A stretch of 64,000 bases of DNA from NCBI RefSeq assembly GCF_004319545.1, contig NZ_CP036313.1, positions 2,916,501 through 2,980,500 on the forward strand, read 5' to 3'. The DNA comes from Desulfobacter hydrogenophilus. GTDB taxonomy: Bacteria; Desulfobacterota; Desulfobacteria; Desulfobacterales; Desulfobacteraceae. Shown piece after piece: positions 12,672 through 35,353 of this stretch; the stretch's first letter is position 1, and each line of letters begins with the position of its first letter. The notes beneath the pieces were generated by a model. It ran no database searches. It was not told the DNA's origin and saw nothing but the letters and a program-made list of their open reading frames with translations. The translations under genes and the position numbers were made by a program.

Positions 12672-14819
12672 ATGAATCACAGGATCATTAAAGTATTCAT
12701 TCTTGGGATATTTATCCTGGGTTTTATTTTGTTTTTCGCATTTGATCTCCACCATCAGGTTTCTTTTGAGAATCTTAAAGCCCAGCAAGCCACCCTGGAA
12801 AAATTTTATGCAGCAAACACCCTTCTGACCATTTTTATTTATGCTGGGACATATATCCTTATAACGGGGCTGTCACTTCCGGGGGCCGCCGTGATGACCC
12901 TGGCAGGCGGTGCCTTGTTCGGTCTGTCCGCGGGCACTGTAATTGTTTCCTTTGCCAGCACCATCGGTGCCACCCTGGCATTTCTTGCGGCGCGGTTCCT
13001 GTTAAAGGATTATATCCAGAATCGATTTGCCGATCGGCTGCGCAAAATTAATGAAGGGGTTGAAAATGACGGGCCGTTCTATCTTTTCACCCTGCGCCTG
13101 GTGCCGGTGTTTCCCTTTTTTGTTATTAACCTGGTCATGGGGCTTACCCCCATTAAGGCTGGGATGTTTTATATTATCAGTCAGGTGGGCATGCTTCCCG
13201 GAACTCTTGCCTACATCAATGCCGGCACCCAGTTAGCCCGGGTAGAAACCCCGTCTGGGATTCTTTCCCCCGCTTTGATCGCCTCCTTTGTCCTTTTGGG
13301 GATTTTTCCCTGGATCGCAAGGGCGTTTACCAAATTTTTAAAAAACCGGCGGGTCATGGCAAAATTTCATAAACCGTCTCGATTTGACTATAACCTGGTG
13401 GTCATCGGTGCCGGTTCCGCAGGTCTTGTGACCTCGTATATCGCAGCCGCTGTGAAGGCCGGTGTGGCATTGATTGAAAAGGACAAAATGGGGGGAGACT
13501 GCCTGAATACGGGGTGCGTACCCAGCAAATCATTGATCCGCAGCGCAAAAATGCTTTCCTATGCCAAACGGGCAAAGGAATTTGGTTTTGAACGTACCCG
13601 GATTGACTTTGAATTTAGTGACGTGATGGAGCGGGTGGAAAACATCATAAAAAAAATAGCGCCCCATGATTCTGTGGAACGGTATACCCAACTGGGGGTT
13701 GACTGCATTTCAGGAGAGGCCCAAATTATCTCCCCATACGAAATTAAAGTAAACGGGGAAACCATAACCACCCGCAGCATTGTGGTGGCTACGGGGGCTG
13801 GACCCCGAATCCCTTCCATCCCCGGTCTGGATCAGGTGGCGTATCTGACCTCTGACACGGTCTGGTCCTTGCGGCAACTGCCCCGGCGTCTGGTGGTGGT
13901 GGGCGGCGGCCCCATTGGGTGCGAGCTCAGTCAGGCCTTTGCCCGTCTGGGCGCCCAGGTTACCCAGGTGGGCCGGGCTCCCCGACTCATGGGCCGGGAG
14001 GATGAGGATGTAGCGGATTTTATCAAAGACATCTTCACCAAAGAGGGCATTCGGGTCCTCACCGGGCATAAGACAAAGGAAATACGGGTGGACGGGGACC
14101 ACAAAACCCTGATCTGCACACGGAATTTAGACAAACAGGACGTAGCTGTTGAGTTTGACGCGATCCTGCTTGCCGTCGGCCGCGTGGCCAATACCAAGGG
14201 CTTTGGGCTGAAAAAACTGGGGGTGGCACTGAACCCCAACGGCACCATTAAAACCAATGACTGGCTGCAGACCACTATTCCCAATATTTATGCAGCCGGT
14301 GATGTGGCAGGTCCTTATCAATTCACCCATGTGGCCTCCCACCAGGCTTGGTACGCTTGTGTAAACGCCTTGTTCGGCGGTTTTAAAAAATTCAAGGCAG
14401 ATTACCGGGTGATCCCCTGGTCCACCTTTACCGATCCCGAAGTGGCCCGGGTGGGGATGAATGAAACCGATTGCCTTGCTGCCAATATTCCGCATGAGGT
14501 TACCTGCTATGGCATTGACGACCTGGACCGGGCCATTGCCGACTCCGAAGCCCATGGGTTTGTTAAAGTTTTAACCGTCCCCAAAAAAGACAGGATTCTG
14601 GGGGTAACGATTGTGGGCGCTCATGCCGGTGATTTGATCCATGAATTTATTCTGGCCATGAAATACAATATTGGCTTGAATAAAATTCTTGGTACCATCC
14701 ATATTTATCCGACATTGGCAGAGTCCGCCCGGTCTACGGCTGGGGTCTGGAAAAGAGCCAGGGTGCCTGAAACCGTTCTGGGATTTGTGGAGCGATATCT
14801 GGCCCGGCAGCGTAAATAG
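12672..14819 (+). CDS. TVP38/TMEM64 membrane domain fused to a pyridine nucleotide-disulfide oxidoreductase
   Basis: A 715-residue fusion. Residues 1-225 are a DedA/TVP38-type membrane domain (SLPGAAVMTLAGGALFG; LRLVPVFPFFVINLVMG). Residues 237 to the end form a flavoprotein of the lipoamide dehydrogenase/mercuric reductase class: FAD motif VVIGAGSAGL, redox-active cysteines in GGDCLNTGCVPSKS, NAD(P)H motif VVVGGGPIGCE, second FAD motif YAAGDVAG and the C-terminal His-Glu dyad in HIYPTLAES. It lacks the MerA N-terminal HMA domain and C-terminal Cys pair, so mercury reduction is unlikely. It is first in the plus-strand cluster with ArsM-like and glycosyltransferase genes; a thiol/disulfide or arsenical redox role is inferred. 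Confidence 0.85.
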   Translation: MNHRIIKVFILGIFILGFILFFAFDLHHQVSFENLKAQQATLEKFYAANTLLTIFIYAGTYILITGLSLPGAAVMTLAGGALFGLSAGTVIVSFASTIGATLAFLAARFLLKDYIQNRFADRLRKINEGVENDGPFYLFTLRLVPVFPFFVINLVMGLTPIKAGMFYIISQVGMLPGTLAYINAGTQLARVETPSGILSPALIASFVLLGIFPWIARAFTKFLKNRRVMAKFHKPSRFDYNLVVIGAGSAGLVTSYIAAAVKAGVALIEKDKMGGDCLNTGCVPSKSLIRSAKMLSYAKRAKEFGFERTRIDFEFSDVMERVENIIKKIAPHDSVERYTQLGVDCISGEAQIISPYEIKVNGETITTRSIVVATGAGPRIPSIPGLDQVAYLTSDTVWSLRQLPRRLVVVGGGPIGCELSQAFARLGAQVTQVGRAPRLMGREDEDVADFIKDIFTKEGIRVLTGHKTKEIRVDGDHKTLICTRNLDKQDVAVEFDAILLAVGRVANTKGFGLKKLGVALNPNGTIKTNDWLQTTIPNIYAAGDVAGPYQFTHVASHQAWYACVNALFGGFKKFKADYRVIPWSTFTDPEVARVGMNETDCLAANIPHEVTCYGIDDLDRAIADSEAHGFVKVLTVPKKDRILGVTIVGAHAGDLIHEFILAMKYNIGLNKILGTIHIYPTLAESARSTAGVWKRARVPETVLGFVERYLARQRK

Positions 14820-14845: not shown

Positions 14846-17800
14846 ATGGCCTTTTTCAAATGGGGATACACCTTGAGCTCAAATAGATATGACGACTGGA
14901 TCAGGCTTGAACTGGACAAAATAGCGGTATATGTCAAACCCGAATCTCCGGACTGGATTGTACCCAGTGCTTCCGGGGACCGGCTGCTTCAAAACATCAT
15001 TGCATCCGGGGGGCGGAACACGACAGATGAAAGACAGGGCCGACCTTCAATATACGGGGATGCTGATTTTTCTTCCATCGTCCGTGAATCCCAGTTTTTG
15101 TCACTGTTAAAATCTCCGGACATCGCCGATTACAAGGGCAGGGGCCAGGCATTGAGCCTGACCGCATTAAAGGAGTGCTGGCTGCATATCACAAATAAAT
15201 GTAATCTTGCCTGCCGCCACTGTCTTTTTTCCTGTTCATCCAGAACAAGTGAGACCATGGATTTTGACATGATATCCTCCATTGTCTCCCAGGCTTATAC
15301 CCTGGGCACCCGGATTTTTTATTTAACCGGAGGTGAGCCCATGGTTCACCCCGATTTTCAGGACATATGCCGCCTGATTTTAGATGAACACGCCGACACT
15401 ATGCTTGTGATTTTAACCAACGGCATATTGATTCCGGAGTACCGGGCTTTTTTAAAGTCTTTGCCGGGCGACCGCCTGTTTCTCCAGGTCAGTCTGGATG
15501 GTCTTGAAGACGCCAATGACGCATTAAGAGGAACGGGGTCTTTTGCCAAAACAACCGCGGGCCTTGCTGTTCTTGAGCAATTGAATATCATAACCACTCT
15601 GTCCATGGTTGTTCACCCGGATAATTTCTTTCAGATGGCGGAAATGGTCAGGCTCGGGGCCAAATTTTCTGTGGATAGTATCCACTATATGTGGCTTTTG
15701 ACCACTGGCCGGGCGTCATCCCAGCCAGCGGTGCCGATGGATGAATTGTTCAACAACCTGGTGCAATGCCACGGTCTTGCCGCCGCACACAATCTTACCA
15801 TTGATAATATCACCAATCTGTCCACCCGGGTGTTTTCCACCCCCGGCACCAAATATGACCTGGGTAATGCCGGGTGGGAATCGTTGGCTTTAGATCCCGG
15901 GGGCAAGATTTATCCCACCCCGGCCCTCATCGGCCGGGAAAAGACCGTATGCGGCCATATTTCCCAGGGGCTGGAGATGGTCTGGAAAAACAGTGACGCC
16001 CTGTCTTCCCTACGACGTTTATCGATCAAGGATGATGCTGTCTATGAGGCCAATCCTTTAAAATATATTGTGGGGGGTGGCGACATTGATCACAGCTTTT
16101 TGACCGGTGGCGCATATATGGGCCATGACCCTTATGTACCCTTGTATAACCGGCTGGCCTTGTGGTTGATGATTGAATCGGCCCGGATCACCGAAGAACA
16201 GCCCTGGCCCCAGATCCGGCGTAAGATGGGGGAAAGATTGCTGCATTGTGTCCAAAACGGAGAAGGTGTGGCTTTTACCCATTCCAATTGTGTGCTCACC
16301 TTTGCCGATACCCACGGCGTTGTGGGACAATTTTACTCAGCCGCGGCCGAAGACGAGAACACGGATATTACGAATCCGGTTTGTTATCCCGATCCGGAAA
16401 TATCCCATATCCCCAAAGCCGCCAGGATTCGTTCCTATGGGTGTGGTAGCCCGGTGCTTGACGCAGGCGTTTCCCCTGGTGAAATCGTTGTGGACCTCGG
16501 TTCCGGGGCCGGGGTGGAGTGCTATATTGCCGCTCGTAAAGCAGGTTCCCGGGGACGGGTTATCGGTATTGATATGCTTGATAACATGCTGGCTCTGGCC
16601 CGCCAATCACTTGATGATGTGGCCGACCGCCTGGGGTACCGGAATGTAGATTTTAAAAAGGGGTTTCTGGAACAGCTGCCCCTGGATGACAATACCGCAG
16701 ATGTGGTCATTTCCAATTGCGTCATAAACCTCTCTGAGGACAAGCGACAGACTTTTTCGGAAATATTGCGCATACTTAAACCCGGCGGGCGGATTTTTAT
16801 TTCCGACGTGGTTACGGATGACCCCTGTCCCCCCGAAATCCAGAATGACGCCAAACTTCGGGGGGAGTGTCTTTCAGGGGCCCTTGTACAGCCCCATCTG
16901 ATAAGCATCCTTGAATCTGCCGGGTTCAGCCGAATCAGGATTGTGAAACGCTTTTTTTACAAAGAGGTTCTGGGTCATAAATTTTATTCCATCACCTATA
17001 CGGCCTTTCGATCCCTGCCGCCTGAAAAATCCAGAATTTTGTACCCCGGACCCTATGCGGCGGTTATGACCGACGATGGAGACCTGCTTTTACGCGGACA
17101 GTCATCGGAAGCCAACTGGCCCTATGATGCCTGGGGGGATACGTCTATTTTCAAGTTGGATCCCATGGGTAATGTGGCCAATATCGAGGCCGTAAACGCC
17201 TGCAGCTGCGAAGTGGCTCCCACGCCTGTCCGGAAAGACACCTCCGGTACCCAGGCAGCCCCGGCCCATGAAACAGATCAGAGATTCCAACACGACTGCA
17301 TGCTGTGCGGCAAGCCCCTGGTCTATTTAAAGGAAGACCGGCTGGAAGTTTGTGTATTTTGCAAAAATGAATACCTGGCCAACGCCGTGTGCGAAGACGG
17401 ACATTTTGTTTGCGACCACTGCCATGGCGAGGATATGGTGGATGTGGTCAAACATATCTGCGCCCATACCGATGCAACGGACATGATTGATTTGATGAAT
17501 CAGCTCCGGAGTCATCAATCATTTCCCCTCCATGGCCCGGAACATCATTTTGCGGTGCCCGGCGTCATCACGGCCGTTTACAGAAACCTGGGCGGCGATA
17601 TCACGGATAAGGATATCACCACGGCCATTGACCGGGGCTGTAGTGTTCCCGGCGGCGTGTGCGCCTTCTGGGGCACCTGTGGAGCCGCAGTGGGTGCGGG
17701 GATCGCTTTTGGGGTCATTTTGAAAAGCACCCCCCTGGTGCCCGGTGCCAGGCAGATTGTCCAGAAGGTCTCCGAAGCCATTATCCATGACCTGAACCAG

Positions 17801-17974
17801 GCATCGGCGGCCCGCTGCTGCCAGAGGGAAGTATGGACGACCTTTAAAGCAGTGGCCCGGTTGTCAAAAATTCACCTGCCTTTGACCCTGAAGGCCCAGG
17901 GAGACGTTCAATGTCGACAGCAGGGAAAAAACAGGGAGTGCATCCGGGAGGAGTGCCCCTATTTCAAGGTATAA
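14846..17974 (+). CDS. Radical SAM - ArsM-like methyltransferase - DUF5714 fusion protein
   Basis: A 1042-residue, three-part protein. After a PqqD-like start, the radical SAM domain (about 100-450) holds the cluster motif CNLACRHC, LTGGEP and LQVSLDG. The methyltransferase (about 490-750) has VDLGSGAGVECYIAA, SNCVINLSEDK and GECLSGAL. The cysteines in these three motifs, together with SYGCGSP before them, match those conserved in arsenite S-adenosylmethionine methyltransferases (ArsM). The C-terminal Cys/His-rich region (about 815-1042, CMLCGK, CVFCKNE, CDHCHGE, GGVCAFWGTCGA) matches DUF5714. Flanking genes encode families tied to arsenosugar synthesis, so an organoarsenical pathway is plausible. 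The substrate is not proven. The ATG at 14846 follows the upstream stop by 26 bp. Confidence 0.85.
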   Translation: MAFFKWGYTLSSNRYDDWIRLELDKIAVYVKPESPDWIVPSASGDRLLQNIIASGGRNTTDERQGRPSIYGDADFSSIVRESQFLSLLKSPDIADYKGRGQALSLTALKECWLHITNKCNLACRHCLFSCSSRTSETMDFDMISSIVSQAYTLGTRIFYLTGGEPMVHPDFQDICRLILDEHADTMLVILTNGILIPEYRAFLKSLPGDRLFLQVSLDGLEDANDALRGTGSFAKTTAGLAVLEQLNIITTLSMVVHPDNFFQMAEMVRLGAKFSVDSIHYMWLLTTGRASSQPAVPMDELFNNLVQCHGLAAAHNLTIDNITNLSTRVFSTPGTKYDLGNAGWESLALDPGGKIYPTPALIGREKTVCGHISQGLEMVWKNSDALSSLRRLSIKDDAVYEANPLKYIVGGGDIDHSFLTGGAYMGHDPYVPLYNRLALWLMIESARITEEQPWPQIRRKMGERLLHCVQNGEGVAFTHSNCVLTFADTHGVVGQFYSAAAEDENTDITNPVCYPDPEISHIPKAARIRSYGCGSPVLDAGVSPGEIVVDLGSGAGVECYIAARKAGSRGRVIGIDMLDNMLALARQSLDDVADRLGYRNVDFKKGFLEQLPLDDNTADVVISNCVINLSEDKRQTFSEILRILKPGGRIFISDVVTDDPCPPEIQNDAKLRGECLSGALVQPHLISILESAGFSRIRIVKRFFYKEVLGHKFYSITYTAFRSLPPEKSRILYPGPYAAVMTDDGDLLLRGQSSEANWPYDAWGDTSIFKLDPMGNVANIEAVNACSCEVAPTPVRKDTSGTQAAPAHETDQRFQHDCMLCGKPLVYLKEDRLEVCVFCKNEYLANAVCEDGHFVCDHCHGEDMVDVVKHICAHTDATDMIDLMNQLRSHQSFPLHGPEHHFAVPGVITAVYRNLGGDITDKDITTAIDRGCSVPGGVCAFWGTCGAAVGAGIAFGVILKSTPLVPGARQIVQKVSEAIIHDLNQASAARCCQREVWTTFKAVARLSKIHLPLTLKAQGDVQCRQQGKNRECIREECPYFKV

Positions 17975-21353: not shown

Positions 21354-24300
21354 CTATTTGGAAAAATGAAATACCGCATTTTGGGCCCGGCAATGGGTCA
21401 GTAGCTGTTTGAAGCAGCAGTGTCTGGCCAGCAGGGCGTCTGAATCGGGAATGACCGAGAAAAAGGCCTGGCTGCCCATGATGACCAGTTTCTTTCTGGC
21501 CCGGGTCATGGCTACATTGAGGCGGTTGGGGCTGTTTAAAAATTCGCTGGTCAGATGATCTGGGTCCGAGGCGGTGAGACCGAAGAGGATGACGTCCCGC
21601 TCGGCACCCTGGATTCGTTCTACGGTGTCCACGAGGGGTAGGGGGGGAAGGGAGGGATAGCCTGCCATGGATTTTCCCAGGCGCTGGAGGATGGCGTTGT
21701 TCTGGGCCCGGTGGGGCGTGATGATGGCCATCCGGTCCGGGGCGAGACCGTGGCCCAGGATCAGGCGCCCGGCCAGGGCGGCCATAAGATTCGCCTCCAC
21801 ATCCGATTGCTGGCCGCACCCCTGGTGATCCGTTAATACCAAGGTCACAGGCTGTTCCGGATTCAGGATGTCGCTGAGTATCGATTCGTCCCCTGTTGGA
21901 CTGTATGTTTCGTCTGGGTCGTTCAGGTAAAGCCGTGCATTTTCCACTGAAGGGTCCGGGTAAAGCCGGCTGTGGTACCAGGTTTTGGATGGAAATGCGC
22001 AGATTTCTTTGTTCATCCGGTAGGTGGTGTCCAGGGTGACCTGGCAGTCTTCAGGATACAGGTCACGGATATTGGAGAGAATGGAACTGTTCAAGCGTAT
22101 TTCGTTTTCATCGTCATCTTTATTGTCATCAGGGTCATGGGGATCATAATTGCCCATGACAATGGGGGGAAGCTGATGGATATCGCCCAGGAAAAGAAAA
22201 TTTCCCCTGGCGTAGATGAGACTGAGCAGGGCCTGGGGCACCGGGACCTGGGAGGCTTCGTCAAAAATCATCCAGTCCAGGGCCAGGGGAAAGCCTTTGT
22301 CCTTGCTGTTGAACAGGGAATAAAATCCGTATCCGGTGGCGCCTAAAATCAACCAGGACCGGGTTGGCAGATCCCGGACGTCCTTTGTATATTCCACCTT
22401 CATGACGGCATCGTCGGGATTGGATGTTTCGGATGCCAGAGCGTTGTCTTCTCCCCATTTCACGCATTGGCCCGGAAACTCACCCGGCAGATATTGGTTG
22501 ACCAGTTGGACCACTTTTTCCAATACCGTGTCAATGGCCTGGTGGGTCAGGGCGCTGATGCCGATGCGCAGGGGATTTCCGGCCTCATGGGCTTCAATGA
22601 TCAGGGCAATGATGATCCATCCCAGCAAATGGGTTTTCCCAGTGCCGGGCGGTCCCTGGATCATGGCGGTGCGGTATTGGAAGGGGAGCTTTAAGGCCTG
22701 CTGCTGTGAGGGGTTGAGGCCGTGGTGGTCCCGGGCCAGCCATTTTTCCACCCAGGCTGCCGATGTAGGTGTCTGCCTTTCCAGGGCTGTTCCGGCCAGA
22801 AGCTGCTGGAGATGGAAATATCTGCTTTTTGAAAACAGGGTCTGGGAGGCGTGGTGCAGCTTTTCCCGGTTCCAGTCATCCATATCTTCTTCAAGGGAGT
22901 AGAACAACGTTTTGTTGAGATTTATCTTGCCGGACCGGGAAAGCAGCCCGATGTCACCGGCTTGCCTATCATATTCGACCATGATCACGGGAAAGCCGTT
23001 TTGCAGATCGACCATGCCATGGGGAACCAGTTTGAGGAAATCCCCCTGTCGGAATTTGGCCGGCTGGGTCTGGTCTGTGGGCCTGAAAATATTGATAAAG
23101 CGCCCGGTGTTGTCCAGCCGGGTCTGGTGGAATTTCAGGTATCCCAGGGACCTGAACCGCAGCATTCGCTCTTCCAGGGGCTGTTCCTGGAGCATCATGA
23201 TATCTGCCTCTTTCAGGCGTTGCTCCTCCTGGATAAATGTTGTATAGGCCCGGGCTTTTTTATCCACATCGTTGCTTGAGGGCCACTCCTTGATCCACTG
23301 GCTTTGCAATTGGGACACGGCGGTCTGATACAGCTCTGCCATGAGCGCAAGGCATTTTTTTGCTTCGGCTGCAGCTTGGCCTATATCGCTGATAAATCCG
23401 CTGTTGTGGTGAAATAGGGTCGGTGGTGGTGCAGGGATGGTTTGGCATTTGAAGATGCGGCCCAGGGTATAAAGGGATGCTGTGCCCGGAGCGGGCATGT
23501 AAAAATGGGCGGTCAGGACCTTTTGTATGTCCGTCCAGGAAGAGGGCTGGGTTTGGTTGAGAAATTCCCAGGATAGTCTCTGTGCCTCCCCAAGCCATTT
23601 ATTTATTGTCGCGGGTGTCTGGGATCCAAAATGGAAAATATGGGGACACTGACCGGTATGGATGCTCTCTTTCCACAATCGCGTCAATTCCTTTAAAAAG
23701 GTCTGTCGGACTGCCTGCCGTTCCGTTTCGGTTTCCATGGTCCATACATTTGATTCAATAATTGTCCGGCCGTCTGTATCCAATACCAACCACCCCAGGA
23801 CCCGGGGCAGGCCGTCCAGGGGATTTTTTTCCAGGTGGATGAAAATGCGCCTGGATAGGTTGGCCGGGAAGCGGTGGGTCTTTTTTTCATGGCAGCTTAT
23901 ACGGCCGGTTAAAAAGGCGTCACACCACCCAATTAATTTTTTCTGCTGTCCAGGAGAGAGGTGACCGGTCTCTTTTTCAAGGGCACCGGATAGCTGTTCA
24001 AGGGTGGTGCAGCCCATCTGCTGCAGGGCAACCAGTTCGCCTTTGGTTAATTTTGGCAGAAATCGGATATCCTCATGGATCAGGGCATGGTGGTAGCAGC
24101 CAGGAAATCCCGAACAGGCGGTGCACAGGCTTTGAAGCCTGTAATCTGCATGGGCCGGCAGGCCGGAAAGCACATGGCAAAGGTGGTGCAGAAGGGTTGG
24201 CAGGGCCGCCATGTAAGGGCTTAAATCAAATTCATGGATCCGATACTGTTCTGTTTCCCGGACGTCACTTAACGGCGGCGGGGTAATGATGAACCCTTTG

Positions 24301-27176
24301 CGGGAGATCCGGGCAGGCAGCTTGCAGCGTTCAATAATTTGTTCTATGGCCAGGGCATAGAAGGCCACCTGCCATTTATGGTGGTATCCTGGTGTCCGGC
24401 TGTGCTTGATATCCCCGGCTTTAATGATTGCCTGTCCGCCTTTGCCTGGGGACAGTTTCAGAAGATCGGGGATGCCGATACCTGTGATATGGGGGAATTG
24501 ATGGATGGGCGCTTCTGTCTTGAGATAGCACTGGGACAGCCAGACCGGCCGGGCTTTTTCCGGATCACGGTCGGCCAGTTGTTTTATTGTTTCTTCCAGC
24601 AGCTTAACGGAAGGGGCCCACCGGGGCTCTTCGGTCGCTGCAGGTTCCGGAACCGCCGGTTGGTTCCCCTGTTGTTCAAGGGCGGCCAGCACCGCCTGTT
24701 CATGTTGGACGCCCTGTTCCCGGACAAGGGCCATGACATCTTCCTGCTCTTTTACAGGGTGGGCCAAGCCAAGGTAGGACAGACAGAACCTGCGGTCACA
24801 CTGCCCGTGAAAAATATAATCACTGACCATGGTGGCGGTGAGGGAGCGAGCATCGCCCGGGTCCGGGTCAAGGCAGGGAGATTGCCATACGGGGGATAAA
24901 AAGGGTGAATTTTCCGGCGGTTTTGCCGTCTGTTTTTCATGGGACAGGAGCGCGGTTCCGGCTTCCATCTCAAAGCGTGGAGATTCGTCGGTCGTTATGG
25001 GCAATGGTCCGGAAAGGTCGGCCATATCCCCGGAAACAATATCCGAATCCAATTTTAGGTACCGGGCAAAGGTATCCGCCACCCGTTGATCAAAGAGGAA
25101 ATCCGCCACCTCTTCCACCATCTGTTTTCTGGGCAGGGTTCGCCAAAAAATATTCAAGGGGATCATGCTGCGCAGGACCCTTAAATGGGCGGATACCCAT
25201 GTGTGAAATTTTTTTTCTGTAACGGGCAGGTTCAGTTTTTGAAAGTCAATCCAGCAGGAGCATTCCACCCCGGTTTCGCTGGAGGCCACCTCCAGGTCAT
25301 CATCCTGGAAATGGTCCCGGACGGCCCATTCCAGCACCAGGTTACCGGCGGACCCCAGAAAGGTGCGGAAGTGGAACCTTGCCCGGGTCCCCGGAACCAC
25401 CTCAATGCCGTTGGCCAGCGTCACCCGGTTTTCAGAATATGACAGCTCCCGGCGGAATAATTTTTGGGTCCGGGCCATGAGGCCGCTGTCTTGGGGCAGG
25501 GTGCCGGTGCCCAGGATACGCCCCATGGCCTGGGCTGTTTCCCAGGAGACATGTGCACCCAACCCTACCCAGACCAGGTCTTTATCATCTTTTTTCATGG
25601 TCGGCCGGGCCGTGACCTTGCCGGGATCACCCGCTTCAATTTTCAAAATTTTAAGGCGCCGGCCCGAAAGATAGACCCGGTCCCCCACCTCCATCTGGTC
25701 CACAATGGATTGGGGGATATCGGCAATGGATTCCATGTCTACTTCAAGGATGTATTCCTTTTCGCTTTCCGGAAAGTTTCCCCATATTTTGTATTCCATA
25801 AAATGGTTCCGGTACTGCCAGCCGCCTCGAAGCAGGCCGGGCCGCTTGGTCCGTCTCAGCCAGCCCTTTTTTTCAAGGGCCTTGAAAATATCCGGCAACA
25901 GGCTTTTGCGGTCCGGAAACAGGGATTTCAGGGCGTTGAGGGAAATTTCCTTTTTTTCGTAGAGACAGGAGATGACCTGCTGGCTCAACACACTGGGCAG
26001 GGTTTTGGGGGTCGGGGCCTCGATTCTTCCCTGGCGGCCCAGCGCCAGCAGGGCAAGAAAGCGGATCGCCTGGTTGCCGGCGGATTCCCCGGCGGTGATG
26101 CCCCAGAAATTGATGGACTGCCCCCGGCGGTTGGACCGGCCGATGCGCTGGAGAAAGGCCGACACCGAGCCCGGGGGCTGATAAAGGAGCACCGCATCCA
26201 CATCCCCCACATCAATGCCCAGCTCCAGGGTTGAGGTGGCAATGCACAGGGCATGGGGATTTTTCCGGAACCGGTCTTCCGCTTTTTTCCTTTCCTTTGC
26301 CTTGAGGTTGGAGTAGTGCAGCTCGGTGACATCCCTGAACACCCCGTTGCGCCGGACAATGCCGGAAAGTCGGTCGCAGGCCGACCGGCTGTTGCAGAAA
26401 ATAAGAATTTTTCGATACGCCCATTCCCGGTATAAATCATTGAGCAGGGCGGGCAGCTCGGTCTTCTCTTGTTTCAGATGAAGAAGCCGGGCCTGAATCT
26501 GTCGGTCCTGGCGGGTCGCACCGGCCGAGATGGCGGTGCTGCAAGGTCTGAAATTAAGGAAATCCATGACCTGGGGGATACCGGCAATGGTCGCGGACAT
26601 GGCAATTTTTTGTATGGGCTCGCTCGTTCTGCGTTCCAGGCGGGTGAACAGATAGACCAGGTGTCGGCCCCGGTACTGGTGGACCAGGGGATGGACTTCA
26701 TCGACAATCACGGTGCCCACCCGGGCCAAAAAGGCTTTAAGATTGGCATTGCCGCTGCCCAGCATTACATCCAGGGATTCCGGGGTGGTGAACATGATGT
26801 CCGGCCGCTTGGTTCCCCCCTTTTTGATGTCCCCGGTCCGGATGGCCAGGATCAGGTTCAGCCGCTCGGTGATGATGGGTTCAAACCGGCGCATGAGGTC
26901 CTTGGCCAGGGCCCGGGTGGGAATGATGTATAAAACGCCATGGGCACAGCCCGAGGTGATGACCCGTTCCAGGGCCGGGGCCAGTACAGCCTCACTTTTG
27001 CCCGATCCGGTGGCTGCCTGGACGATGAGATCCCGGCCCTCAAGGATGGGGGCGATAGTTTCAATCTGGACGGGCCGCAGACCGGCAAAAGCCCCATAAA
27101 AGGGGCGGAAGGTGTTGGGGAGCCTTAAAAGGGGGTTGGGTAGGGGGGCTGATTGCGGATCAGGGTCCTGGACCAT
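21354..27176 (-). CDS. Giant SF2 helicase - Cas4/RecB-like nuclease - SF1 helicase fusion
   Basis: A 1940-residue protein with three catalytic modules. (1) Residues 30-400 are an Lhr-like SF2 helicase: AATGSGKSE (54-62), DEVH (159-162), MSATI, TSTLELGID, QRIGRSNRRG. (2) About 780-1060 is a TM0106/Cas4-type nuclease: Cys in CDRRFC, GIGIPD, GDIKHS and QVAFYALA (the D, D-x-K and QxxxY pattern), with C-terminal cysteines CTACSGFPGC that could hold an iron-sulfur cluster. (3) About 1490-1920 is a UPF1/Dna2-like SF1 helicase: GPPGTGKTH (near 1507), DEASQVP, LGDIHQLPPI, RIQGAERDVI, NVAMTRARKKL. All motifs are intact. It is the last gene of a four-gene operon with two BrxD-like ATPases, starting 5 bp after the preceding stop. 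Confidence 0.88.
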   Translation of the reverse strand: MVQDPDPQSAPLPNPLLRLPNTFRPFYGAFAGLRPVQIETIAPILEGRDLIVQAATGSGKSEAVLAPALERVITSGCAHGVLYIIPTRALAKDLMRRFEPIITERLNLILAIRTGDIKKGGTKRPDIMFTTPESLDVMLGSGNANLKAFLARVGTVIVDEVHPLVHQYRGRHLVYLFTRLERRTSEPIQKIAMSATIAGIPQVMDFLNFRPCSTAISAGATRQDRQIQARLLHLKQEKTELPALLNDLYREWAYRKILIFCNSRSACDRLSGIVRRNGVFRDVTELHYSNLKAKERKKAEDRFRKNPHALCIATSTLELGIDVGDVDAVLLYQPPGSVSAFLQRIGRSNRRGQSINFWGITAGESAGNQAIRFLALLALGRQGRIEAPTPKTLPSVLSQQVISCLYEKKEISLNALKSLFPDRKSLLPDIFKALEKKGWLRRTKRPGLLRGGWQYRNHFMEYKIWGNFPESEKEYILEVDMESIADIPQSIVDQMEVGDRVYLSGRRLKILKIEAGDPGKVTARPTMKKDDKDLVWVGLGAHVSWETAQAMGRILGTGTLPQDSGLMARTQKLFRRELSYSENRVTLANGIEVVPGTRARFHFRTFLGSAGNLVLEWAVRDHFQDDDLEVASSETGVECSCWIDFQKLNLPVTEKKFHTWVSAHLRVLRSMIPLNIFWRTLPRKQMVEEVADFLFDQRVADTFARYLKLDSDIVSGDMADLSGPLPITTDESPRFEMEAGTALLSHEKQTAKPPENSPFLSPVWQSPCLDPDPGDARSLTATMVSDYIFHGQCDRRFCLSYLGLAHPVKEQEDVMALVREQGVQHEQAVLAALEQQGNQPAVPEPAATEEPRWAPSVKLLEETIKQLADRDPEKARPVWLSQCYLKTEAPIHQFPHITGIGIPDLLKLSPGKGGQAIIKAGDIKHSRTPGYHHKWQVAFYALAIEQIIERCKLPARISRKGFIITPPPLSDVRETEQYRIHEFDLSPYMAALPTLLHHLCHVLSGLPAHADYRLQSLCTACSGFPGCYHHALIHEDIRFLPKLTKGELVALQQMGCTTLEQLSGALEKETGHLSPGQQKKLIGWCDAFLTGRISCHEKKTHRFPANLSRRIFIHLEKNPLDGLPRVLGWLVLDTDGRTIIESNVWTMETETERQAVRQTFLKELTRLWKESIHTGQCPHIFHFGSQTPATINKWLGEAQRLSWEFLNQTQPSSWTDIQKVLTAHFYMPAPGTASLYTLGRIFKCQTIPAPPPTLFHHNSGFISDIGQAAAEAKKCLALMAELYQTAVSQLQSQWIKEWPSSNDVDKKARAYTTFIQEEQRLKEADIMMLQEQPLEERMLRFRSLGYLKFHQTRLDNTGRFINIFRPTDQTQPAKFRQGDFLKLVPHGMVDLQNGFPVIMVEYDRQAGDIGLLSRSGKINLNKTLFYSLEEDMDDWNREKLHHASQTLFSKSRYFHLQQLLAGTALERQTPTSAAWVEKWLARDHHGLNPSQQQALKLPFQYRTAMIQGPPGTGKTHLLGWIIIALIIEAHEAGNPLRIGISALTHQAIDTVLEKVVQLVNQYLPGEFPGQCVKWGEDNALASETSNPDDAVMKVEYTKDVRDLPTRSWLILGATGYGFYSLFNSKDKGFPLALDWMIFDEASQVPVPQALLSLIYARGNFLFLGDIHQLPPIVMGNYDPHDPDDNKDDDENEIRLNSSILSNIRDLYPEDCQVTLDTTYRMNKEICAFPSKTWYHSRLYPDPSVENARLYLNDPDETYSPTGDESILSDILNPEQPVTLVLTDHQGCGQQSDVEANLMAALAGRLILGHGLAPDRMAIITPHRAQNNAILQRLGKSMAGYPSLPPLPLVDTVERIQGAERDVILFGLTASDPDHLTSEFLNSPNRLNVAMTRARKKLVIMGSQAFFSVIPDSDALLARHCCFKQLLTHCRAQNAVFHFSK

Positions 27177-27181
27177 AAGGC

Positions 27182-28438
27182 TCAGCAGGATTCTTTTTGC
27201 TGTTCCAGGTCCAGCTGGTTGACCAGAAGTCTTAATTTCATTCTGGATTCGGCCCCTTTGTTTTGGGATAGGATCTGCTTCATTTCCCGGTCTATGTCAG
27301 CGGTCTCCGGTGCCCATTCGTAGGCCCGGCTGTGGAGGATTCTAAGCTTGCCCGATAGTGTCTCCCATTCACCGGGTGACAGGTCCTGGAGAGAATGGAT
27401 ATTTATTTTTTTCCAGGCCTTGTGGTAATCGCGGGCAAAGCAGGGAATCTCTTCGGTCGGCTGGTCGGCTTTCTGCCGTCCGCCGGGTCTGCGGGTCCGG
27501 TCCCAGGGCTCGGTTTCAACCAGGGTAAAAAAATCATGGGTAAAGGCAAATACCGGGTAAAATCCCTGTGCCGGACGTTCCGGGCAGAAGATTTCATGGA
27601 GGAGATCATAGCTTTTGCTGCGGCTGGTGATGCGGGTCTGGCCGATGGATTCCCCTTCATCAAAAAGCAGGACCCATCCCCCGTATCCCATCTCTTTGAA
27701 CAACCGGGCCAGTCCTTTTACCATGGCCAGATATTCCTTTGGTTCCCGGCACACCAGGGAGCCGCCCTTATAAAACGGCACTTCCCGGTAATGGAATGCT
27801 GCAGCAAGCTTATGGGCCGGGATCTCTTTGCCCATAAGGGCATTTTTCAGGGTCCAGGCAAAGGATCTGGGCTGAAACCGGGCATGTTTTTTAAGTTTGC
27901 GCTTGTTTGCCGGAATCTCCATGTTATTGTGGACCATGGCCGCCAGGATGGCCCGGAATCGGTGGGGCATGTCACCGGTGATGAAATCGCCGATAGCCTT
28001 ATCCTTATTTTCCGGCCGGGCCAGCCATTGGGCGGCTGATTCCTTCCATACTTTTACCAGGTTGGTTTCCTCATTGGGAAAAACCATGGCCCCCATCAGG
28101 GCCCGGTAGACCGCTTTGAAATCGTGGAAGGGGATCTGCCGGGGGTCCAGGTTGATATAGCTGACCACAAAATTATTTTCCAGGGCCCGCTGTTTCAAAT
28201 AGGTGAGGCTGTGGGATTTGCCCTGGCCGTATGCGCCGCAGACACAGAGGTGGTAAGGCGTTCCCTTGTCCAGGGCTTCGACCCCCCGGTCAAAAAGCTG
28301 GTTGAGCTTTTCTTCCCCCGAGGTGAGCCATTGAACCCCCAGTGGATCAAACAGACCCTCCCTAATGCGTTCTACCGCCCTGCGCAGATAAAAATTTTTG
28401 GTACCGTTGATCTGCTCGCTAAATGCCTTTTCATCCAT
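27182..28438 (-). CDS. BrxD-like P-loop ATPase 2 (DUF2791-type)
   Basis: A 418-residue ATP-binding protein. Walker A is CGAYGQGKSH (68-75), followed by a strand with YINLDPRQIPFHDF; Walker B is GWVLLFDEGES near 254-264. The wording resembles the BREX BrxD/DUF2791 ATPase family and the downstream partner of the same name type. It lies 29 bp after the first ATPase gene and 5 bp before the giant helicase gene. Its role could be loading or regulating the helicase-nuclease; this is inferred from operon structure and from BREX, where BrxD accompanies an Lhr-like helicase. Confidence 0.75.
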   Translation of the reverse strand: MDEKAFSEQINGTKNFYLRRAVERIREGLFDPLGVQWLTSGEEKLNQLFDRGVEALDKGTPYHLCVCGAYGQGKSHSLTYLKQRALENNFVVSYINLDPRQIPFHDFKAVYRALMGAMVFPNEETNLVKVWKESAAQWLARPENKDKAIGDFITGDMPHRFRAILAAMVHNNMEIPANKRKLKKHARFQPRSFAWTLKNALMGKEIPAHKLAAAFHYREVPFYKGGSLVCREPKEYLAMVKGLARLFKEMGYGGWVLLFDEGESIGQTRITSRSKSYDLLHEIFCPERPAQGFYPVFAFTHDFFTLVETEPWDRTRRPGGRQKADQPTEEIPCFARDYHKAWKKINIHSLQDLSPGEWETLSGKLRILHSRAYEWAPETADIDREMKQILSQNKGAESRMKLRLLVNQLDLEQQKESC

Positions 28439-28467
28439 GGTATCATTTCCGGTTTAAGAGTCCCGAT

Positions 28468-29781
28468 TTAATTGTCCCAAGAGGGCTCCATCTGTTTCAT
28501 CTTTTCCTCTTCCATCTCTTTCCGGGTTTCGACCATCTGCCGGGCCATGTCCATATCCTCCGGGGACTGGCCCTGTTCGGCCAGGTCCAGGACGCCGATG
28601 AGCTGCTTGATGAAAAGCCGCACCTCGCTGATGACACCCATTCTTTTCTGACTGGCACAGATATCCTCTATGACCTTGTCCGTGACCAACGCTTGCGGGG
28701 ACCAGCGGTAGGCGACGCCGTGCAAAGACAAAAGGCACCGGCCCAGGTCCACCAGTTCTTCGGTTTGAAGGGGCGTCTGGTGGATATCCACAAGGACCCC
28801 TCGATAATTGAGGCGTTTGGCGTCGCCCATTGATGTCCCGATGGACCGCACCCGGCTCCACAGGGCGTCGTAGGACTTAAATCCTTTTTCCGATACCAGT
28901 ACGTCCGGGATGATGGAAAAAAAGATGTGAAGGTATTGGGCGGTCTCGCTGTTATCTATGAAGAGGCGGACATTTTCGTAGGCGGCATTGCGCACCGAGG
29001 CACTCATGGTCACCACCGTCTCCATTTCATCCATGAGCAGGATTAAGCCCTGGTGTCCAAACCGTCGCAAAAACAGGATCAGGGAATTCATCAGCTGCCG
29101 GGCATTGGTCTTGGTCAGGTATTCGTAAATCTGGAAGGGCTTGATTTCCCGTTTAGTGACCTTGCCGCCGTCAAACCAGTGCATGAGGATTTCCCGGTCT
29201 GCTTTGCGGCTCACCTCATCCTCCTCCTCTGCCATGGGGGCAAACCGGTTGTTCACCAGGGCGGCCAGTGCATTGGCAAAGTTGATATCCATGTCCGGGA
29301 TATCCCTGAATCCTTCGGCCAGGGCCGTGCATTTTTCTGTGGCGGCTTCTGCTTTGGCGTCTTGGAATTCCGTTGACAGGGAGTCCAGCCAGGCGGTCAG
29401 CAGATCCCGGATGCCCACGCCGTCAAAATTACCCTGGAGCTGCCGGACAATGGATTGGTAAACGGTTTCAAATTTGTGGATGGGCACATCCCGGGTCAGG
29501 ACCACAAAGGAGACGGCAAATCCTTTTTCCATAGCCAGGTGCTGGACTACGGACATGAAATGGGTTTTACCATCTCCGTAATCCCCGCTGATGAACCGTA
29601 CCTTGGCTCCGCCTTGGGCAATGTAGTTTTCAAGATCGTCTTCGATATAGGAAAGCCATTTTTGACGGCCCACGGTAAATACCGGCACATATTCCACAGG
29701 CACGCTGCCCTTGCGCAGATCTTCGATGATGGATCTGGCCTGGAAGGGTTTGAGTTCTTTGAGGGCATCCAATGATATCAT
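28468..29781 (-). CDS. BrxD-like P-loop ATPase 1 (DUF2791-type)
   Basis: About 437 residues. Walker A is SGDYGDGKTH, Walker B GLILLMDEMET near residue 250, and the stretch after Walker A (VVLTRDVPIHKFETVYQ) aligns with YINLDPRQIPFHDFKAVY of the next gene, so the two are distant paralogues. The frame opens at a TTG (29787), but the ATG at 29781 has better spacing from AAGGA. The end is Met/Glu/Lys-rich and probably helical. It is similar to BREX BrxD (DUF2791). It lies a few bases after the stop of the upstream gene. Confidence 0.78.
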   Translation of the reverse strand: MISLDALKELKPFQARSIIEDLRKGSVPVEYVPVFTVGRQKWLSYIEDDLENYIAQGGAKVRFISGDYGDGKTHFMSVVQHLAMEKGFAVSFVVLTRDVPIHKFETVYQSIVRQLQGNFDGVGIRDLLTAWLDSLSTEFQDAKAEAATEKCTALAEGFRDIPDMDINFANALAALVNNRFAPMAEEEDEVSRKADREILMHWFDGGKVTKREIKPFQIYEYLTKTNARQLMNSLILFLRRFGHQGLILLMDEMETVVTMSASVRNAAYENVRLFIDNSETAQYLHIFFSIIPDVLVSEKGFKSYDALWSRVRSIGTSMGDAKRLNYRGVLVDIHQTPLQTEELVDLGRCLLSLHGVAYRWSPQALVTDKVIEDICASQKRMGVISEVRLFIKQLIGVLDLAEQGQSPEDMDMARQMVETRKEMEEEKMKQMEPSWDN

Positions 29782-29793
29782 GACCAAGATTCC

Positions 29794-30630
29794 TTAGGAT
29801 TTATGGAAAGAGATGGCAGTGATCTGGCGCAGTTCCCCCTGGGTGTCCAGGAGCCACAGGGCCTTGTTACGCCCCGGGGTGAGTTGAAGTTCGTACCCTT
29901 GCGACGAGCCGCCGATGCCCGCCTGGTAGTAGCGCCACAGGTCCACTGAAAATTGATCCAGGCTGTAACCGTTGAATTTTCCCTTGTCCATGTTTTGGAA
30001 AAAGGTTTTGGACTGCAGGGAGATCACATAGGCCAGGTAAAAGTGCTGCATGGGAACGGGACGGGCGGCAGGTAGATCTTCTTTTTCAAGGAGTTCCAGG
30101 TAGACCTTGCACAGGGCATCAATGAATGCCTGGGGATCATAGGGTTTCTCATACAATTGTTTCTTTAGCCGGACCACCATGGCCATGATCCGCCGGGGAT
30201 CAATGGATTTGAGCACCTTTTTGTTGATCTTTGTGGAACGGCTGGCGAAATCAATCTCCCCGGTGATGCCCTTTAAAACCGTGAACCTGGGAAAATCCAT
30301 CTCCATTTCGAGACCGGCCTCTTCGCATTTCTGGGTCAGGTCTTCGATGAGATCCATGCGGTACTGCTCCACCTTTTTATCGGCATAGGCCCCCAGGGTT
30401 TCAAATACCGGGGCGCAGCTTTCAAGGGTTTCGTCCTCGCATATATCCCTGGCCAGTTTGCTTTTGAGCAGTTCATCCAGTTGGAGAAAGTCATCTCTTT
30501 CCGCACACCGGATGCATTGTTTGATCAAATCGGCTTTTTTTTGTTTTTGGTTCAGATCCCGCTGAAAGGGCTGAACAATCTGTTTTAAATTTTCTTGTAC
30601 ATTCTCAAGAAATTCATTTGGTTCCGGCAT
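29794..30630 (-). CDS. Unknown protein, first gene of the helicase-ATPase operon
   Basis: A 278-residue soluble protein that I do not recognise. It is mainly helical and charged in the first 110 residues (a coiled-coil-like start with QKQKKADLIKQCIRC and CAERDDF) and has a mixed C-terminal half with WRYYQAGIGGSS and ITAISFHKS. No nuclease, methyltransferase or TerB signature was seen. ATG at 30630 is preceded by GAGGAA. Its stop lies only bases before the first ATPase start, so it should be co-expressed with the two ATPases and the giant helicase. It may be the adaptor or sensor of that system (inference). Confidence 0.6.
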   Translation of the reverse strand: MPEPNEFLENVQENLKQIVQPFQRDLNQKQKKADLIKQCIRCAERDDFLQLDELLKSKLARDICEDETLESCAPVFETLGAYADKKVEQYRMDLIEDLTQKCEEAGLEMEMDFPRFTVLKGITGEIDFASRSTKINKKVLKSIDPRRIMAMVVRLKKQLYEKPYDPQAFIDALCKVYLELLEKEDLPAARPVPMQHFYLAYVISLQSKTFFQNMDKGKFNGYSLDQFSVDLWRYYQAGIGGSSQGYELQLTPGRNKALWLLDTQGELRQITAISFHKS

Positions 30631-30736
30631 TTGATTCCTCGTTTGTTTTCAAATTTTAATTGATCAATTTTCTACACTGATGCCGGAAAAATTTCAATGG
30701 TTAAGGAATAAGTACCAGCAATTCCAAATTTATTTT

Positions 30737-30802
30737 GCACAAAGCCTCAAAGGGCCATCAAATAAAATAAATTTTTCTTTGTGGACGCTGTGTCCTTTGT
30801 GG
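30737..30802. repeat. CACAAAG inverted repeat, copy 2
   Basis: GCACAAAG (30737-30744) is followed by CTCAAAG and then by two inverted copies, CTTTGTGG at 30777-30784 and 30795-30802. It is the same word pattern as at 2894-2953 and lies in the divergent gap between the helicase-ATPase operon and the tesA-like gene, where both promoters should be. Confidence 0.4.
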
Positions 30803-34810: not shown

Positions 34811-35353
34811 ATGACCACGGCATGTGTAAGAAAGATATTGCCCAATGTTAAGGATTTTAAAACGTTTTGGAAAAAACAAGGTCCTTTCAGGTACGCTCTG
34901 ACAAGCAATGAATACCCGCCGGTGCTGCTGGATCTCGAAGAGTGGATATTTGGTCAGGATAAACAGGCGGTGCTTAAAGAGCTGATGCAGTTCTCCCGTA
35001 TGAAAATGTCTTTTGTATCAGCCCCGTTTAACCCGGACAATAAAAGTATCCTGCGTCCTGATGATCTCTGTGCCTGGAAGATTGTCCATTTCCCGGAAGC
35101 CTGGAATGCCATGGTATGCGAAGGGTTTCTGCCCGAAGGCCAGCTCACCCGGGCGGTGGTGGATGAATGTATTGCCCTGGGTTTGAACCAGGATAAATCA
35201 GGTATAGAACAGGCTTTTTTCAGCCTGCTGGAAAGGCAGCTGGATTGCATGGGTTATGTATGGCTGCCGCCCCGGGGGAACGCAAAGAGCGCCTTTATTC
35301 ATGAATACCTGGATGAGTGGCGTCAGGATGAGGAAGAGGCCGGGCTACTGTAG
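34811..35353 (+). CDS. Hypothetical protein
   Basis: A 180-residue soluble protein with no signal peptide or membrane segment. It is compact and rich in aromatic residues (FKTFWKKQGPFRYALTSNEYPPVLLDLEEW), with a helical C-terminal end. I do not recognise the family. It is 96 bp after ybbP on the same strand; the gap has no obvious terminator, so it may be read through. Coding character is good: normal amino-acid use and a proper stop before a convergent gene. Confidence 0.65.
   Translation: MTTACVRKILPNVKDFKTFWKKQGPFRYALTSNEYPPVLLDLEEWIFGQDKQAVLKELMQFSRMKMSFVSAPFNPDNKSILRPDDLCAWKIVHFPEAWNAMVCEGFLPEGQLTRAVVDECIALGLNQDKSGIEQAFFSLLERQLDCMGYVWLPPRGNAKSAFIHEYLDEWRQDEEEAGLL

Follow-up and report, generated by a model that had tools for sequence, protein, structure and literature searches.

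Shango and type 2 BREX (bacteriophage exclusion; Pgl) both join a BrxD-type ATPase to a superfamily 2 (SF2) helicase. Anti-phage activity is reported for Shango (PMC10250203). BrxD is an ORC-Cdc6 AAA+ ATPase that has been proposed to load or activate BrxHI, and its role is also called uncharacterized (PMC12839542, section 24). How Shango and the BrxD-BrxHI pair work is unsettled in the literature searched. The locus described here lies in a window of 64,000 nucleotides (the whole stretch of DNA analysed; C1:2916501-2980500) of the 5.16-Mb genome of Desulfobacter hydrogenophilus. It is a four-gene operon encoding, in order, a signature protein (A), two BrxC/BrxD-type AAA+ ATPases (B and C), and a giant helicase-nuclease-helicase fusion (D). 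The interpretation favoured here, and judged somewhat likelier to be right than wrong, is that A-B-C-D forms one unit standing beside Shango and the BREX-2 dyad, in which ORC-like A-B-C would load the helicase-nuclease, most likely restricting invading DNA.

The operon occupies positions 30630-21354 on the minus strand and comprises A (29794..30630; 278 amino acids [aa], no known family), B (28468..29787; 439 aa), C (27182..28438; 418 aa), and D (21354..27176; 1940 aa). The intergenic gaps are 6, 29, and 5 bp, and the open reading frames (ORFs) thus reproduce an earlier description made without database searches (the sequence-only reading), in which four minus-strand genes 5 to 29 bp apart appeared to be a single transcription unit. 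The start codon of B is TTG in the ORF call used, and because some relatives begin B at a Met two codons later, the A-B gap is perhaps 12 bp. The 150 bp between A and a divergent GDSL-lipase gene (30631..30780, no strand) is a candidate promoter region. Among the matches listed, Desulfobacter latus and D. vibrioformis are the closest named records, with 92% identity in B.

B and C belong to the BrxC/BrxD ATPase family (Pfam BrxC_BrxD, PF10923), as both exceed the curated cut-off of 22.2 bits (B, E=7.4e-61, 206.7 bits; C, E=1.6e-22, 80.4 bits) and keep their Walker motifs. They are the only PF10923 proteins of the window's genome and share ~24% identity, C being the more divergent. Walker A and Walker B (G68-T75 and D253-E254 in B; G68-S75 and D260-E261 in C) are conserved at ≥95% over 63 rows for B and 60 for C. 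Neither protein reaches the BrxD equivalog level of NCBIfam (160.6 and 72.3 bits, respectively, versus a cut-off of 350), and the PADLOC model of SngB matches B at 4.8e-34. In the ATPase tree, main-type B, main-type C, SngB, and BrxD form separate branches, the five SngB rows having a branch of their own (100/100).

The first part of D (residues 1-704; 25065..27176, minus strand) is an SF2 helicase with Walker A around G57 and DEVH from D159. Pfam places DEAD and Helicase_C at residues 34-352, and the PADLOC matches to BrxHI (4.7e-89 over residues 30-704) and SngC (1.7e-70 over 31-630) span most of a helicase protein, so that D is a BrxHI/SngC-type helicase in the broad sense. In the 40-row helicase tree (unrooted, with two long rows), 34 rows of the family of D split from six SngC and BrxHI rows (100/99), and the four SngC rows form their own branch (100/100). 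The separate branches of helicase and ATPases suggest that the cassette is neither Shango nor BREX 2 but a lineage beside both. A further open frame of 1789 aa in the same genome, outside the window (G000:C1:307368-307685), matches SF2 helicases weakly (E 4.9e-7).

Four cysteines combined with a D...DxK active site are the functional motif of iron-sulfur (Fe-S) RecB-type nucleases such as Dna2, Cas4, and AddB. The middle part of D (residues 787-1035; 24072..24818, minus strand) is a RecB/Cas4/Dna2-type nuclease in which C793, C1018, C1021, C1027, and D922 are each present in 30 of 30 rows, D904 in 29, and K924 in 28. Judged by these residues, D would be a nuclease of the Fe-S class, with a predicted Fe-S cluster. 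The TM0106 RecB-like nuclease model (TIGR03491, NCBIfam) matches residues 792-1230 at 2.1e-11, and at 43.4 bits, below the curated cut-off of 97.45, D falls outside the TM0106 family. The last part (residues 1484-1930; 21387..22727, minus strand) is a superfamily 1 (SF1) helicase of the Dna2/UPF1/IGHMBP2 type, with AAA_11/AAA_12 at 1487-1903 in Pfam, Walker A from G1508, and DEAS from D1639. With residues 781-1940 as the query, the top three Foldseek matches in the Protein Data Bank are Dna2 nuclease-helicase (best E=5.4e-36), and Dna2 is nearest to this SF1 helicase among solved structures. D therefore shares with Dna2 and TM0106 a four-cysteine RecB-type nuclease followed by an SF1 helicase, but its nuclease-helicase sits behind an SF2 helicase and is tied to two AAA+ ATPases.

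Protein A has no significant family match in Pfam, PADLOC, or NCBIfam profile scans. Its predicted structure consists of a long helical hairpin (residues 1-104), a small alpha/beta part (106-160), and a C-terminal part (164-278) that may be a winged helix; the model as a whole is unlike TerB. Should the winged-helix match be real, the cassette would differ from ORC/Cdc6-type AAA+ loaders in carrying this element on a separate protein. TerB and SngA are absent among the families listed for 59 homologues of A (25 of 43 families listed for Pfam and all six for PADLOC, with no positive control), and two TerB proteins taken from Shango-type plasmids show no real similarity to the window's A. The sequence-only reading had seen twin BrxD-like ATPases, a helicase-nuclease-helicase, and no TerB protein in the operon; profile scans, Foldseek, and conserved motifs bear out the first two, and the homologues and predicted structure of A agree with the third. 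Profile matches and trees likewise confirm the relationship that it drew with Shango and type 2 BREX, whose other genes are missing here.

A divergent Shango, with A in place of TerB and D as an enlarged SngC, is nevertheless an improbable description. Both systems place a BrxD-like ATPase before a BrxHI/SngC-type SF2 helicase in a compact operon whose first protein lacks an enzyme domain, the order non-catalytic protein-ATPase-helicase is found in Shango-type plasmid operons, and SngB and SngC match B and D as given above. However, A is not TerB-like, unlike SngA, so that the TerB protein of Shango is missing; two ATPases stand where Shango has one SngB; the helicase is fused to a Dna2-like nuclease-helicase; and it lies outside both the SngC branch and the SngC+BrxHI group of the unrooted tree. 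With type 2 BREX the cassette shares a linked BrxD-type ATPase and BrxHI-type helicase, and the BrxD model matches both B and C, but far below its equivalog cut-off. The cassette also differs from type 2 BREX in having no PglZ, PglX, BrxC, PglW, or modification gene. A Pfam search of the operon and 10 neighbouring genes of the window found none of these four, PglX and PglW not having been searched for genome-wide, and the sole PglZ match of the window's genome is an 833-aa frame (G000:C1:4164668-4165201) ~1.2 Mb from the cassette. The searches made gave no match to a named system, and no description of the cassette was found in the open-licence literature searched.

The association of the four genes was examined in a scan with B, which gave 65 loci in records titled as Deltaproteobacteria/Desulfobacterota groups, Latescibacterota, SAR324, Chlamydiae, Gemmatimonadota, Acidobacteria, and Gammaproteobacteria, most of them metagenome-assembled genomes in which misbinning is possible. 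A is next to B in 62 of these loci, and in the other three B lies at or near the contig start (62/62 testable), while C is next after B in 62, with two contigs ending there (62/63 testable). Over 27 loci, the four proteins have distance matrices that correlate at 0.82-0.90, and together with the adjacency this indicates that the grouping is real rather than due to chance. In 47 loci, out of 59 with enough sequence, D is found downstream of C (46 within ~1.6 kb and one at 8.2 kb). The tail of D is found upstream of A in three loci, and D is unseen in 15 stretches, six of which end ≤200 bp after C (or after B where C is cut off) and nine of which do not. Twelve genomes were picked for D being missing from the stretch, upstream, or short, and all 12 have a D-like match (E≤1e-40): a long open frame in six, pieces on different contigs in four, and a short helicase only in two. 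Downstream placement, the presence of some form of D in these 12 genomes, and the correlated distances make D a near-obligate partner of A-B-C.

An 833-aa gene is found upstream of unlinked D in two genomes, with a 4-bp overlap (L209:14292-16793) or at distances of ~106 bp (L208:658-3159) and ~760 bp (L213:7141-9642). The L209 gene encodes a PIF1-HRDC-HTH_40 helicase, and the other two are judged to be copies of it by their like starts. A pair that looks MazEF-like by sequence separates C and D in one locus (L171:11903-12509), and a similar pair lies beside an unlinked D (L211:6378-6984).

In the proposed mechanism, the ORC/Cdc6-like ATPases B and C would form a hetero-oligomer, for which A would act as a scaffold and perhaps as a DNA-binding winged helix. 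A-B-C would sense a structure or state of the DNA that is characteristic of invasion or damage, and would in response load D or license it. Translocation by D would rely on its SF2 helicase, and its Fe-S RecB-type nuclease, helped by the Dna2-like SF1 helicase, would degrade the DNA. The purpose would most likely be to restrict incoming DNA such as that of phages and plasmids. The loader would be more complete with the B/C pair and A, and D has its own nuclease, so that four proteins could carry out recognition, loading, and DNA destruction without a methyltransferase. Since the nuclease-helicase is Dna2-like, self DNA would be spared most probably through a structural cue such as ends, flaps, or replication intermediates. 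As a third lineage with a recognisable fused nuclease, the cassette predicts that the job of the core is to bring a DNA-destroying helicase onto its target.

The distribution of the cassette is patchy. Within the genus it is present in nine of 19 genomes, and in the phylum the A profile is found in 17 of 395 genomes at E≤0.001, eight of them strong and including the window's own; among the relatives of a Chlamydiae carrier, A occurs in five of 77 (carrier included), one A being broken. In non-carriers G016 and G006, a single 190-195-aa gene separates a 180-aa gene from the genes found downstream of D in G005; this arrangement, read by eye from ORF starts, is taken as an empty site, and in G009 a 130-aa remnant of D lies at the empty-site position. 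The shared flank described below, empty sites, remnant, and patchy counts suggest a locus that is mostly inherited within the genus, with losses or gains, and scattered across phyla. G053 has two 35-residue pieces of the beginning of A, equal in score and with the rest of the gene absent (C3:364313-364417 and C8:198033-198137).

Several observations weigh against the favoured interpretation. The A side of the cassette faces the same genes in eight of nine genus carriers (the GDSL lipase gene or a 180-aa gene at 34811; at a distance of ~8 kb in G018), and many genes next to main-type loci are ordinary. At one locus (L047), the 5.6 kb that follow B contain no C, and in the ATPase tree short-type B and C group apart from main-type B and C, so that the B/C pairing is ambiguous. 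The sequence-only reading had named a conserved inherited position in related genomes as grounds against a defence role, and the shared flank provides this in part. The same stable position and ordinary neighbours would fit accessory DNA repair or fork processing, in which the task of A-B-C would be to guide a Dna2-like enzyme for end resection to damage in the host's DNA, independently of invaders. This main rival is also consistent with the Dna2-like nuclease-helicase itself, with the PIF1-HRDC-type helicase gene upstream of D at three loci in two genomes (overlapping D in one), and with matches of the SF2 helicase to Lhr-type and ligase-associated DNA-damage helicases, which stay below their NCBIfam cut-offs. 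Repair is nevertheless considered rather unlikely, as it accords poorly with the patchy accessory spread and losses, the two plasmid copies, the top PADLOC matches to helicases of defence systems, and a related module with an Mrr nuclease.

Both plasmids carry a short version of the cassette, A-B-C followed by a helicase of ~700 aa. In Desulfomonile tiedjei it is on the 27-kb plasmid pDESTI.01, alongside an AbiE pair and an integrase. In Aulosira laxa it is on plasmid3, 172 bp behind BrxD and BrxHI genes (PADLOC E 2.1e-166 and 6.5e-280). The cassette is preceded there by a further gene, annotated 'alkaline phosphatase domain', that is PglZ-like by position alone. The plasmid A proteins are homologous to that of the window (E ~1e-10; 97.5% probability in hhalign for the Desulfomonile one). 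One copy being on a conjugative plasmid and one accompanied by an integrase gene, and the cassette of G013 being at a different location from those of the other eight genus carriers, a maintenance or anti-competitor module of plasmids or other mobile elements stranded on chromosomes might be envisaged. This is highly improbable, as A-like proteins, both of them distant, occur in only two of 72,556 plasmid records, and A was not found in any phage record or viral contig.

Weak A-profile loci in the phylum include two further operons of the short type (L173 and L174), a locus in which A is joined by three ATPases (L179), and A-ATPase-ATPase clusters. At one such cluster (L180:2090-7696), A, two ATPases, and a 188-aa protein precede an SNF2 helicase fused to an Mrr nuclease. 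The patchy accessory spread, the plasmid copy behind BrxD-BrxHI, and this related module with a restriction-type nuclease make a defence role plausible. They favour the possible new defence system raised in the sequence-only reading. An unnamed class of DNA-surveillance systems may be envisaged, with about an even chance of being correct, in which a conserved core of A and paired BrxD-like ATPases loads interchangeable effectors (SF2 helicase alone, SF2-Dna2-like nuclease-helicase fusion, or SNF2-Mrr fusion); it would be a third branch beside Shango and the BREX-2 dyad, practising methylation-independent restriction. Given an A-ATPase-ATPase core with exchanged effectors, A could serve as a marker protein for finding further systems. 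Another locus (L181:993-7000) has A, two ATPases, and the 188-aa protein, with a partly masked helicase-like frame at the position equivalent to the SNF2-Mrr gene. Proteins of ~280 aa with a weak A-profile match and no Pfam family occur at L177:9743-10585 and L178:6911-7747, beside genes that we take to be hexulose-phosphate synthase/isomerase.

Neighbouring genes were compared in a set of 125 ORFs, comprising 122 hand-chosen from 196 flanking ORFs of 53 loci and three L059 ORFs between C and D, with four Desulfobacter/Desulfotignum loci excluded beforehand. The control was a random draw of 125 of 155 ORFs from 18 hand-picked stretches in other genomes. Main-type neighbours include six AAA_14, five DUF4143, five PIN, and two MazF-like toxin matches, with single matches to restriction enzyme and methyltransferase models, the methyltransferase matches possibly being due to the hand-added L059 ORFs. 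In the control, where the listing covers the first 25 families, AAA_14, DUF4143, and PIN have 0 or 1 match each and MazF-like at most 1, and some defence models are matched too. One-sided Fisher tests gave 0.015-0.06 for AAA_14 and 0.03-0.11 for DUF4143 and PIN. PADLOC families matched number 79 in the neighbours and 20 in the equal-size control, a count of models, many of them on one protein. The excess of AAA_14, DUF4143, and PIN suggests variable regions rather than proven defence islands.

Elsewhere in the window, a VTT domain is fused to a pyridine nucleotide-disulphide oxidoreductase (12672-14819), and the next gene (14846-17974) encodes a radical SAM-methyltransferase-DUF5714 fusion.
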